The notes under the pieces were generated by a model, which worked only from the letters and a program-made list of their open reading frames with translations, made no database searches and was not told the DNA's origin. Both the position numbers and the translations under genes were made by a program. Positions 4,556-61,312 of a DNA stretch of 61,312 nt are shown here, piece by piece; positions within the stretch are counted from its first letter, which is position 1, and every line of letters starts with the position of its first letter. Source of the stretch: Cytophagales bacterium (GTDB lineage: Bacteria > Bacteroidota > Bacteroidia > Cytophagales > Spirosomataceae); the NCBI GenBank assembly GCA_013298025.1, contig JAAFJE010000025.1:1-61312 (forward strand). The letters are read 5' to 3'.

Positions 4556-4843
4556 ATGGCAAATGTAATAAACGATAGAATTGATGTTCGTCTGAGCAAG
4601 GAACAAAAAGAATTGATAAAGTTTGCGTGTGCTTTAAGTGGATTCAAAAACCTTTCGGAATTTATTCTTTTTTGCGTAAATAAAGAAGCCAATAAAATTA
4701 TCATCGAAAATAATCAAATTCTACAAAGTATAGAGGATAAAAAGGTTTTTCTTGATGCACTCCTGAATCCTCCACAGCCTAATAAGCAACTTCAAAAAGC
4801 ACAACTGAGTTACTTAACATTTCTTGAATCTAATGAAGCTTAA
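4556..4843 (+). CDS. DUF1778 (TacA-type) antitoxin
   Basis: A 95-residue protein beginning with NDRIDVRLSKEQKELIKFAC, the ribbon-helix-helix strand and first helix of DUF1778 antitoxins. The motif GFKNLSEFILFCV continues the domain, and the C-terminal half, with the LLNPPQPNKQLQKA segment, matches the toxin-wrapping tail seen in TacA proteins. It should bind operator DNA as a dimer and neutralise the GNAT toxin encoded next, whose start codon lies inside this gene. Confidence 0.88.
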   Translation: MANVINDRIDVRLSKEQKELIKFACALSGFKNLSEFILFCVNKEANKIIIENNQILQSIEDKKVFLDALLNPPQPNKQLQKAQLSYLTFLESNEA

Positions 4844-5351
4844 AATAGCAAGGTTAGCCAAACAACACGACAAAAAAAACTTTAGTTGTGGCTCTACGCT
4901 TTTAGACGAATATATAAAGAAGCAAGCCAAACAAGATGTAAACAGAGATTTATCGGCTTGTTTTGTCTTGATTGATGAACAGTTATGTGTAAAAGGCTAT
5001 TATACTCTTTCTGCCAATGCTATCAAGCGAGAAGAATTTGCAGAAGATTTAATCAGGAAATTACCGCCAAGCTATGCCGATATTCCAACCATTTTACTGG
5101 GTCGTTTAGCGATTGACCAAACAATGAAAGGCAAAGGATGGGGAGCAATCTTGTTGTTAGATGCCTTACATAGAAGTTTGAGCATTGCAGAGAGTTTGGG
5201 ATCGTTGGCTATTGTAGTAGAACCTATTGATGATAATGCCCAAGCATTTTATGCAAAATATGGCTTTATTCTTTTACCTAGTTCTGGTAAAATGTTTTTA
5301 CCTATGAAAACCATCAAAGATTTAGTAAATATGAATATCCTACCTGAATAG
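4833..5351 (+). CDS. TacT-type GNAT toxin (tRNA acetyltransferase)
   Basis: A 172-residue GNAT protein starting MKLKIARLAKQHDKKNFSCG, the conserved opening of toxins such as TacT and AtaT. The acetyl-CoA binding motif is LGRLAIDQTMKGKGWGAILL and the late FYAKYGFILLP motif is intact. These toxins acetylate the aminoacyl group on charged tRNAs and stop translation. The ATG at 4833 is preferred to a TTG at 4824. It overlaps the antitoxin gene by 11 bp in the +1 frame, implying translational coupling. No frameshift or loss of catalytic core is seen, so the pair looks functional. Confidence 0.88.
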   Translation: MKLKIARLAKQHDKKNFSCGSTLLDEYIKKQAKQDVNRDLSACFVLIDEQLCVKGYYTLSANAIKREEFAEDLIRKLPPSYADIPTILLGRLAIDQTMKGKGWGAILLLDALHRSLSIAESLGSLAIVVEPIDDNAQAFYAKYGFILLPSSGKMFLPMKTIKDLVNMNILPE

Positions 5352-59167: not shown

Positions 59168-59848
59168 ATGTCAAATCCATTTTATTACCTCCGCAACCCT
59201 GAAACAACGTATTTAGAAATGTATAAAGCAGCTTATGAAGCAGCTTCTAAAACCGTTGTTTCGCTTGAATACCTACAAAAAGCTGATACTTACTGTTTTT
59301 TTCATGGGCCTAAAATGGTAGGAGGGCTTGTTTTATCATCTGCTGCAAACGGCAATGATTTTCGGTATTTTAGCATTTTTCAACACACGCCTACAGGAGA
59401 GGCTATTCTGCGAACACTCAAACGTAAGTATGGCGTAAATGAAACCGAGGCTGTTGAAATTTCATGTATTTGGATGCACCGCAAGTTATCGCCCTACAAA
59501 AGGATTTACTATTATTGGGTGATGCTATCGGAAGCTATCAAAGTTGTAGAAGCACAGCGATATAAGTATGTGTTTGGCGGTTCTGTAGAATTGACCATTC
59601 AAAGATTTCAGCAGCAGTTTTTTTCTAATGTCTTTTATTTAGGCATCAAGCCTCCACAAGAAACAGGAGCATTAGCCAAGATTGATGGTTCTGCTGTTAT
59701 GATTTATTTTTTAGAAGCCTCTAGTTTAAAATATCAATCTTTTCGCTTGTTACATACGCTCATTTGGCACCAAGTAAAAGCCGAATGGAAGGCTTTCAAA
59801 GAAAAATGGCTCGAAAGTCCCATCAAGATGGTTCTTTCTTCTCGGTAG
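59168..59848 (+). CDS. Acyltransferase-like protein, GNAT/LuxI-type fold suspected
   Basis: A 226-residue cytoplasmic protein not assigned to a family with certainty. LQKADTYCFFHGPKMVGGLV, then FRYFSIF, EISCIWMHRKLSPYKRIYYY and KVVEAQRYKYVFGGSVELT, then FFSNVFYLGI, give the strand and helix order expected from N-acyl amino acid synthases or acyl-homoserine-lactone synthases; the E-I-S motif recalls the E-x-S-R of LuxI. It has no signal peptide. It is divergent from the caspase operon, and its 3' end overlaps the convergent PAS/LuxR-like gene by 26 bp. Confidence 0.55.
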   Translation: MSNPFYYLRNPETTYLEMYKAAYEAASKTVVSLEYLQKADTYCFFHGPKMVGGLVLSSAANGNDFRYFSIFQHTPTGEAILRTLKRKYGVNETEAVEISCIWMHRKLSPYKRIYYYWVMLSEAIKVVEAQRYKYVFGGSVELTIQRFQQQFFSNVFYLGIKPPQETGALAKIDGSAVMIYFLEASSLKYQSFRLLHTLIWHQVKAEWKAFKEKWLESPIKMVLSSR

Positions 59849-60665
59849 CAGAAGTGGGTACTATAATGCCGTTGTTTTTCATATAAATCGCCACATCTTT
59901 GGCTGTTCTAAAATTGTGTTGAGATTTATCATCGGCATACATTTTACGGGCTTTTTCGAGAATATCTTTCGTGTAACTTTTAACGGTGTACAGTTTTAAG
60001 CCCATTTTGCCAGCAATTACCGCCAGATTTTTTTCTGTTAAGAGATGTTGTAAAATTATCCTTTGGTTAGGTTCAAAGTTATTTTCTTTGGGTTTGAGCT
60101 GTGAAAATTCTTTTTGAAACTCATTCATTACCATAGCACGATATGACGCAGGAATACCCTCTATTCTAGGATACAAGGCCTCGCCTTCGTATTCTTTGAT
60201 GAGGGTACAATGTGTAAGATAAGCCGTAATTTTCCCACAAGCTGTCACCTGCCAAGGAGCTATGATGCGTTTCACTAGATACCGTATATTATCGTTTTTT
60301 TTGAGAATCATCGGGGTCAAAACGATGTAGGAAGGTTTTAAGAAATCTATCAGGTCTGTTTTGGAAAAAAGAAAGGTTTGTTTTCCCAATGCCGTCAACA
60401 TAGGCATTACGCCTTGAGGGTCAACCATGTCAAAGTAATTTTTGAGGGTAAAGGTTTTAGGCTCAAAACCAAGGCTTTCCACGCCTCCCAAATCAATGAT
60501 AGTAAAATTGAGCAAATCAACAACTACAAAAAACTGCTCTTCTCGCAGCCCTAGTTTCAGTTTATGGAGTTCGTTTTGTTGCTGTTCTTCCGAAATTTTA
60601 AAAATATACGATGAAGGGTTTGCATGGGTGTAGGACAAGTTTGTTTGTTTAAAAAAAAGCTCCAA
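59823..60665 (-). CDS. PAS/LuxR-like regulator with 5' end disrupted by a MITE
   Basis: The 280-codon frame carries a PAS-like region (about 40-130; LNFTIIDLGGVESLGFEPKT, FTLKNYFDMVDPQGVMPML) and a C-terminal LuxR-type helix-turn-helix (NQRIILQHLLTEKNLAVIAG; KMGLKLYTVKSYTKDILEKA), like the regulator at 45557. The first 13 codons, starting at a TTG, are made of MITE sequence (YTH at the junction). The native N-terminus, MKQHEYKKIQEFARNHY, is encoded at 60873-60825 beyond the insertion and joins in frame if the MITE and one target copy are removed. Whether the TTG start works is unknown; the gene may be inactive. Confidence 0.75.
   Translation of the reverse strand: MELFFKQTNLSYTHANPSSYIFKISEEQQQNELHKLKLGLREEQFFVVVDLLNFTIIDLGGVESLGFEPKTFTLKNYFDMVDPQGVMPMLTALGKQTFLFSKTDLIDFLKPSYIVLTPMILKKNDNIRYLVKRIIAPWQVTACGKITAYLTHCTLIKEYEGEALYPRIEGIPASYRAMVMNEFQKEFSQLKPKENNFEPNQRIILQHLLTEKNLAVIAGKMGLKLYTVKSYTKDILEKARKMYADDKSQHNFRTAKDVAIYMKNNGIIVPTSATEKKEPS
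60618..60625. repeat. Target site duplication, left copy
   Basis: GTTTGCAT, identical to 60817-60824, directly next to the left end of the MITE, inside the coding region of the PAS/LuxR-like gene. Confidence 0.85.
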
Positions 60666-60816
60666 ATTTTATTTGGCATAGCTAAATTTAAGTATGAGAA
60701 AAAGCCTTAATTTTTGAAATATTTCATAAAATTAGCCTTTGGCAAAACAGATTCTTTCTGCTTTGCCAAAGAATATATGAATAAACTTTACTTTTTAACA
60801 AACTTGTCCTACACCC
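60626..60816. mobile_element. 191-bp MITE
   Basis: It starts GGGTGTAGGACAAGTTTGT (60626-60644) and ends with the exact reverse complement (60798-60816), flanked by 8-bp duplications. It contains no gene. An inner hairpin, CTTTGGCAAAACAG (60737-60750) with CTGCTTTGCCAAAG (60758-60771), has one mismatch. The same 19-bp terminus borders the transposase at 61137, so that element could mobilise it. Confidence 0.9.
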
Positions 60817-60824
60817 GTTTGCAT
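60817..60824. repeat. Target site duplication, right copy
   Basis: GTTTGCAT, identical to 60618-60625, immediately after the right end of the MITE. Confidence 0.85.
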
Positions 60825-60873
60825 AGTGGTTTCGGGCAAATTCTTGTATTTTTTTATATTCATGCTGTTTCAT
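60825..60873 (-). pseudogene. Displaced 5' coding segment of the PAS/LuxR-like gene
   Basis: On the minus strand an ATG at 60873 opens MKQHEYKKIQEFARNH, 16 codons plus one base, ending exactly at the MITE boundary. Joined to the target copy it gives Tyr-Ala-Asn-Pro-Ser in the frame of the present gene. It is thus the original start region. Confidence 0.75.
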
Positions 60874-60961
60874 ACACTTGAAATCAGTTTAATTGGCTAA
60901 GACTGTAGGAAATATAGAAGGTTTTGATATAAAATACAATAACTATCTGATTATTAACAAA

Positions 60962-61030
60962 AAACACCCCTCTTGGAGGGGTGTTTCTCACAATAATTTT
61001 ATCTATTTCCCCCCTCTTGTAGGGGTGTTT
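60962..61030. repeat. Two near-identical hairpin repeats
   Basis: CCCCTCTTGGAGGGGTGTTT (60967-60986) and CCCCTCTTGTAGGGGTGTTT (61011-61030) differ at one base in 20 and are 44 bp apart start to start. With its 5' flank, the first copy has perfect 11-bp arms (60962-60972/60976-60986). The region between the MITE and the IS (60825-61136) has nothing else that looks like a gene. Confidence 0.6.
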
Positions 61031-61136
61031 ATTTATCATTCATTTTGATATTTTTGTACTGTTTGCTATTGTCCTTATCAGTAAACTTAGCACTCATAAC
61101 AAATTATATCACATCATATATATTGTCGATTCTTAC

Positions 61137-61312
61137 GGGTGTAGGACAAGTTTGTCATGCTGCCTTTTTTATTTGGTTGACCAGTTCCTGCCATTGATTA
61201 TTTTTCAATTTAATTCTAAGATTAACTATTTGTTGAGCACCTTTTAAAGTCCATCTCTGCCCCGATAGTTTCAATCTTTTTTGAATAACCTCTTTGTTTG
61301 CAGATTCTATCG
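61137..61312 (-). mobile_element. Left end of an IS sharing the MITE terminus
   Basis: GGGTGTAGGACAAGTTTGT at 61137-61155 is the same 19-bp terminus as the MITE. Inside it the transposase gene ends, and the element extends beyond the window. If target copies are 8 bp, the one on this side is ATTCTTAC (61129-61136). Confidence 0.8.
61155..61312 (-). CDS. Transposase C-terminus (ISKra4-like), partial
   Basis: On the minus strand the frame from the window edge reads IESANKEVIQKRLKLSGQRW, then TLKGAQQIVNLRIKLKNNQW and QELVNQIKKAA, ending at a TGA (61157-61155) that overlaps the IS terminus by one base. The motif RLKLSGxRWxxxGAQxxxxLR is typical of ISKra4-type DDE transposases at their C-terminus. 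The 5' part and catalytic core lie outside the window. Confidence 0.72.
   Translation of the reverse strand, partial: IESANKEVIQKRLKLSGQRWTLKGAQQIVNLRIKLKNNQWQELVNQIKKAA

Follow-up and report, generated by a model that had tools for sequence, protein, structure and literature searches.

For elements whose transposases are Mutator-like, among them ISKra4 and ISMich2, terminal inverted repeats of 18–39 bp are described, with direct repeats that measure 8 or 9 bp; in the ISMich2 group, two open reading frames (ORFs) are joined by a −1 frameshift (PMC3942029). A 187-nt MITE in the Microcystis gene sbp resembles the element described here in size, in its stem-loop, in its 8-nt direct repeats, in splitting a gene and in having ends in common with a resident insertion sequence; it differs in its tie to an ISL3-family transposase, its two small putative ORFs, its 9-nt imperfect ends and its 31–33 copies, as compared to perfect 20-bp ends and three copies in our case (PMC11448079). 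For a MITE of Cardinium, too, a resident insertion sequence, IS982, is named as the source, and the MITE is connected with pseudogenisation; the transposase family is another one, and Cardinium is a host-restricted endosymbiont (PMC9769881). Palindromic elements of about 150 bp are found inside genes of Rickettsia; nearly half of these are described as in-frame translational fusions, whereas the present MITE shifts the frame and stops native translation (PMC10969869). No description of an ISKra4-linked MITE was found in the literature searched, mostly at shallow depth, which does not prove its absence; PMC9208149, in which ISKra4 and MITE feature together most prominently, has them in separate passages. 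The event is ordinary in kind and the MITE itself apparently undescribed.

The window, the whole 61,312-nucleotide contig (C18) analysed here, contains a 191-bp element at 60626–60816, as claimed in a first-pass annotation made from the sequence alone. Its terminal inverted repeats (left arm 60626–60645, plus strand; right arm 60797–60816, minus strand) are 100% complementary; they had been called perfect, correctly, and measure 20 bp each instead of the 19 bp given. The element is bordered on both sides by identical 8-bp flanks, GTTTGCAT at 60618–60625 and again at 60817–60824, the two copies of a target-site duplication. The longest stop-free frame is 35 codons and a transposase gene is absent, so the element is short, non-coding and non-autonomous. 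As a single strand it folds back into a long imperfect hairpin (−69.2 kcal/mol, z −9.07; none of 200 shuffles was as low), and an internal hairpin of 16 pairs (60736–60772) on the gene (minus) strand fits a simple intrinsic-terminator pattern with an interrupted U tail. The 5.44-Mb genome of the organism, a relative of Runella and Rudanella, holds three letter-for-letter copies, on C18, C51 and C1, each with its own pair of direct repeats (8, 9 and 9 bp); those of the C51 and C1 copies are CATGAAAAC and ATGCACTAC. As the left flank in the window reads GGTTTGCAT, the repeat may have been 9 bp long and have lost one G on the right; either length leads to the same inferred empty site. Three identical copies at three sites with their own direct repeats, together with the folding z-score, place the element beyond chance. 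We assign 60626–60816 as a MITE on the identical copies, the direct repeats and the ends, which match those of an ISKra4-type insertion sequence.

The MITE interrupts the 5′ part of a minus-strand regulator gene, with the insertion point within the first 19 codons. The present frame (59823–60665) opens inside the MITE, at a TTG (60663–60665) that is its first start, and ends at 59823; the regulator body (59823–60617, minus strand), of putative LuxR type with a GerE helix-turn-helix, is severed from the native start. On the far side, MKQHEYKKIQEFARNH has an ATG at 60873, and the stretch 60817–60873 (minus strand), the predicted native 5′ end of the gene, encodes MKQHEYKKIQEFARNHYAN. Joining the flanks with one GTTTGCAT retained gives a single frame of 283 amino acids from this ATG. 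The insertion site, the TTG start and the in-frame far side had all been read correctly in the first-pass annotation.

The regulator protein is present in 8 of the 59 genomes searched (own included). Uninterrupted genes are found in G001, G003, G024 and G032, all other species or genera than the window organism; G003 and G001 are of its genus and show regulator identities of 48 and 47%. The four proteins are 1 to 4 residues longer than the joined frame ahead of the body, and the N-terminal residues are poorly conserved across relatives. The 16 residues of the far-side peptide were compared with these N-termini in a fixed, ungapped alignment (BLOSUM62) and against 20000 shuffles of the same peptide. 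Scores are 16 for G003 (4 identities; 29 shuffles reach the score), 18 for G001 (5 identities; 29 shuffles), 14 for G024 (4 identities; 30 shuffles) and 29 for G032 (6 identities; 0 shuffles); the G003 and G001 scores are not independent because the two are close kin. Over 13 residues, the far-side peptide scores 20, 16, 18 and 30 with the four relatives, as compared to 3, 3, −13 and −2 for the MITE-derived N-terminus. G025, G028 and G031, which are more distant, give poor N-terminal alignments and are uninformative on the start. A pre-insertion allele is supported by these relatives, which lack the insert, whose N-termini resemble the far-side peptide and whose likeness to the joined protein extends over the junction. 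The congeners G002 and G004 have no regulator match at E 0.001, and as these are two of the four congeners, the genus can apparently do without the gene.

The gene had been labelled a PAS/LuxR-like regulator, of which the second part has support through relatives and the first has none. The GerE helix-turn-helix scores 13.5 bits in the window protein (Pfam cut-off 23.5), exceeds the cut-off in the orthologues L010 (24.6 bits) and L011 (27.0 bits), falls below it in L012, L013 and L015 and gives no match in L017. In a run against the PDB, the C-terminal part of a nine-member profile finds LuxR/NarL-type regulators (1.8e-4 and weaker). The LuxR-type helix-turn-helix of the window regulator is thus supported through its orthologues. 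Neither the window protein nor any of six relatives matches a Pfam PAS model at E up to 1, which does not disprove a PAS domain. In NCBIfam, the window regulator matches nothing but sigma-factor models, weakly (0.0045 and 0.07) and far under the cut-off, and single-sequence structure prediction of the 280-residue frame is unusable (mean pLDDT 33.9).

A convergent partner gene (59168–59848, plus strand; 226 amino acids) is conserved beside the regulator. It is found in 8 of the 59 genomes (own included), 7 of which also have the regulator, with the two genes adjacent in 6 of these 7; the regulators beside it are therefore likely to be true orthologues. No Pfam, NCBIfam or PDB-profile match was obtained for the partner, and its reading as a LuxI-like synthase, suggested by a resemblance and having no support from these three sources, was rejected. 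From their conserved adjacency, regulator and partner are taken as a conserved pair, to which we assign no function. Two near-identical palindromes, CACCCCTCTTGNAGGGGTG, at 60965–60983 and 61009–61027, lie 44 bp apart in the stretch that separates the native start from the insertion sequence; no further copy (up to two mismatches) occurs elsewhere in the window. They are possibly terminators. A different palindrome, of the type TACCCTA-N3-TAGGGTA, lies upstream of regulator relatives in L010 (2373–2389, two mismatches), L011 (1359–1375, three), L012 (2333–2349, none) and L013 (1381–1397, four; this one may be chance), with none upstream of the window regulator gene. In seven genomes its counts are near chance (0 to 3 in each, as compared to 0 to 4 for the control); a role as operator was rejected, and no regulon is claimed.

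An ISKra4-type insertion sequence lies 320 bp from the MITE. Its right end (61137–61312, minus strand), comprising the C-terminus of the transposase and the terminal inverted repeat, runs for 176 bases and stops at the contig end. The 51-residue C-terminus matches NF033572 (ISKra4) at 1.4e-11, ISLre2 at 6.8e-4 and ISH6 at 3.1e-3; the NF033572 score of 44.2 bits is below the cut-off of 205 because only the end of the transposase is present. Contig C29 also terminates in this 176-bp end (99% identity), and contig C9 in the opposite (left) end of such an element, whose 19-bp repeat has one mismatch. The flanks on C29 and C9 have TATGGACTA in common, oriented as a 9-bp duplication from a single insertion should be. 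Searched against the own genome, the 51-residue end matched two contig ends only, from which we conclude that the middle of the transposase gene is unassembled. G211, of the same family and a different genus, holds relatives of the insertion sequence in L072 (1245 bp, to the contig end) and L073 (1266 bp). In L072, two ORFs overlap and an A9 run marks the overlap; L073 shows this first overlap too, likewise at an A9 run, plus additional frame breaks, and no direct repeat.

The MITE shares 19 identical terminal bases with the right end of the resident insertion sequence and 17 with the left end. Its inverted repeats, within 18–39 bp and ending in C, and its 8- and 9-bp direct repeats are like those of the ISKra4 family and the ISMich2 group, and the ORF overlap of L072 is like the ISMich2 layout; unlike ISKra4-family elements, the MITE has no transposase and shares just the terminal 17–19 bases, and the resident insertion sequence is known from two ends (compared with PMC3942029). 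Judged from the ends and the repeat length only, the MITE was probably mobilised by an ISKra4-type (ISMich2-like) transposase, and the insertion sequence at 61137 is likely kin of the source of that transposase. An origin of the MITE by deletion within the resident insertion sequence was considered and rejected. Its interior has no likeness to insertion-sequence DNA (of 300 shuffles, 36, 165, 84 and 300 align as well to the own left end, the own right end, L072 and L031), so that descent is unsupported.

The copy on C1 (L008, element at 4695–4885) splits a propeller/sensor histidine-kinase gene (L008 3337–6605) into two frames. The left part matches Reg_prop (4e-9), and the right part His_kinase, HATPase_c and Y_Y_Y; the left frame enters the MITE and then stops, and the right frame resumes in a different phase. 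Among the four congeners, the best relative of the left part is an uninterrupted frame of 1016 amino acids in G004 (32% identity). The copy on C51 is flanked on one side by a gene that matches a T9SS plug protein and on the other by a frame of 174 amino acids. The element search proposed in the first-pass annotation was run over 99 genomes (own included), with at most eight candidates per genome scored, and among the matches listed full-length copies are confined to the own genome; partial matches in 8 other genomes cover 24 to 59 query bases (E 1.4e-4 to 9.4e-4). The MITE was not found in the plasmid collection searched, nor was its exact 19-bp end in the viral contigs searched. In the genome contig collection, the exact 19-bp end occurs in seven stretches, five from a Runella MAG and two from a Rudanella MAG. 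With up to one mismatch, the 17-bp end occurs in 27 of 222 family genomes and a reversed control pattern in 11 of the 222, so that single matches mean little; a clear excess is seen only in the own genome (G000) and in G005, G062, G211 and G219. Different fold-back elements of 150–158 bp, with terminal bases nearly identical to those of the MITE, were observed in G062 and G005 (L074, L075, L076 and L077); L074, L076 and L077 have 8-bp direct repeats and L075 has none. These elements point to more than a single MITE family carrying such ends in Spirosomataceae.

In our model, an ISKra4-type (ISMich2-like) transposase would have moved the MITE in trans into the 5′ end of the LuxR-type regulator gene, duplicating the target. 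Transcription from the native promoter would then have to traverse the fold-back element, translation from the native ATG would end after 49 codons and the regulator body would be left with an in-frame TTG and no recognisable promoter of its own. We infer both the mover of the MITE and the effect of the insertion, and regard this model, in which the regulator is lost or strongly reduced, as probable. Read from the native ATG, translation runs into the MITE and meets a stop after 49 codons; the regulator body itself has no further stop. Promoters were sought with a pattern that we take to be of Bacteroidetes type (TTG, 17–23 bases, TANNTTTG), a match requiring TTG without mismatch and agreement in five or all six of the bases specified for the second box. 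With this pattern, the MITE contains no match, and the sole match on the gene strand between the insertion sequence and the gene body is at 60939–60909, upstream of the native ATG. This candidate native promoter, TTG-N20-TATATTTC (60909–60939, minus strand), is a weak match, with 0.46 expected from mononucleotide shuffles of the region. The same pattern is absent from the 150 bases upstream of the G003, G001 and G024 genes; the G032 regulator has one match, 1 base from the start, and a partial promoter motif in L002 is at background level. Sigma-70-like matches (9 of 12) number two on the gene strand of the MITE; over 60550–61150, both strands, the four found (shuffle mean 2.4, s.d. 1.7) are background. 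The same region has three terminator-like sites (0.3 expected), one of which is the MITE hairpin on the gene strand. As the MITE sequence gives an in-frame start in three of the six combinations of orientation and phase, the present TTG shows no sign of adaptation.

The first-pass annotation had left the choice between a silenced regulator and one with a swapped N-terminus and promoter; silencing is favoured because the MITE has no Bacteroidetes-type promoter match, the native start hits a stop and an in-frame start arises in half of the phases. A swap, in which the TTG at 60665 and perhaps a new promoter come from the MITE, and MITE-encoded residues replace about 16 native ones, possibly with new control, we consider improbable. 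From 60665 on, the frame stays open as far as its stop and could yield a 280-residue protein minus only about 16 variable residues, the lost ones being poorly conserved; the TTG region is slightly more open in a hypothetical short transcript (0.51) than on read-through (0.32). The two sigma-70-like matches in the MITE would suit such a promoter, and other MITEs are reported with promoters (PMC10969869), but here these matches do not rise above background, no Bacteroidetes-type match accompanies them and a TTG available in half of the combinations is unremarkable. Against silencing stand the weakness of the candidate native promoter and the Microcystis MITE, which is reported to be transcribed through with its host gene (PMC11448079). 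Somewhat less likely again than a simple swap is a regulator rewired and not killed, with the MITE end as translated N-terminus, the AT-rich interior as promoter and both regulator and convergent partner under new control.

That the far-side ATG and peptide are coincidental, and that the gene never began at 60873, is very unlikely. N-terminal identities are indeed just 4 to 6 in 16 and the four relatives run 1 to 4 residues longer ahead of the body, but the far-side residues score well above shuffles in all four, their frame runs exactly into the body and the adjacent partner marks the genes compared as likely true orthologues. We give hardly any credence to a misassembly at a repeat. The draft genome consists of 53 contigs, and the window contig ends inside the neighbouring insertion sequence; three copies, each between its own direct repeats, are not expected from a chimeric join, and paired reads usually span more than 191 bp.

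Loss or strong reduction of the regulator by the MITE thus remains the reading we favour. With identical copies, intact duplications and uninterrupted relatives, the locus would show cleanly how a MITE breaks a regulator, and the TTG-started gene call at 59823–60665 is a product of the insertion. The locus also ties a MITE to ISKra4-type ends in Spirosomataceae, probably through mobilisation by a transposase of that type.
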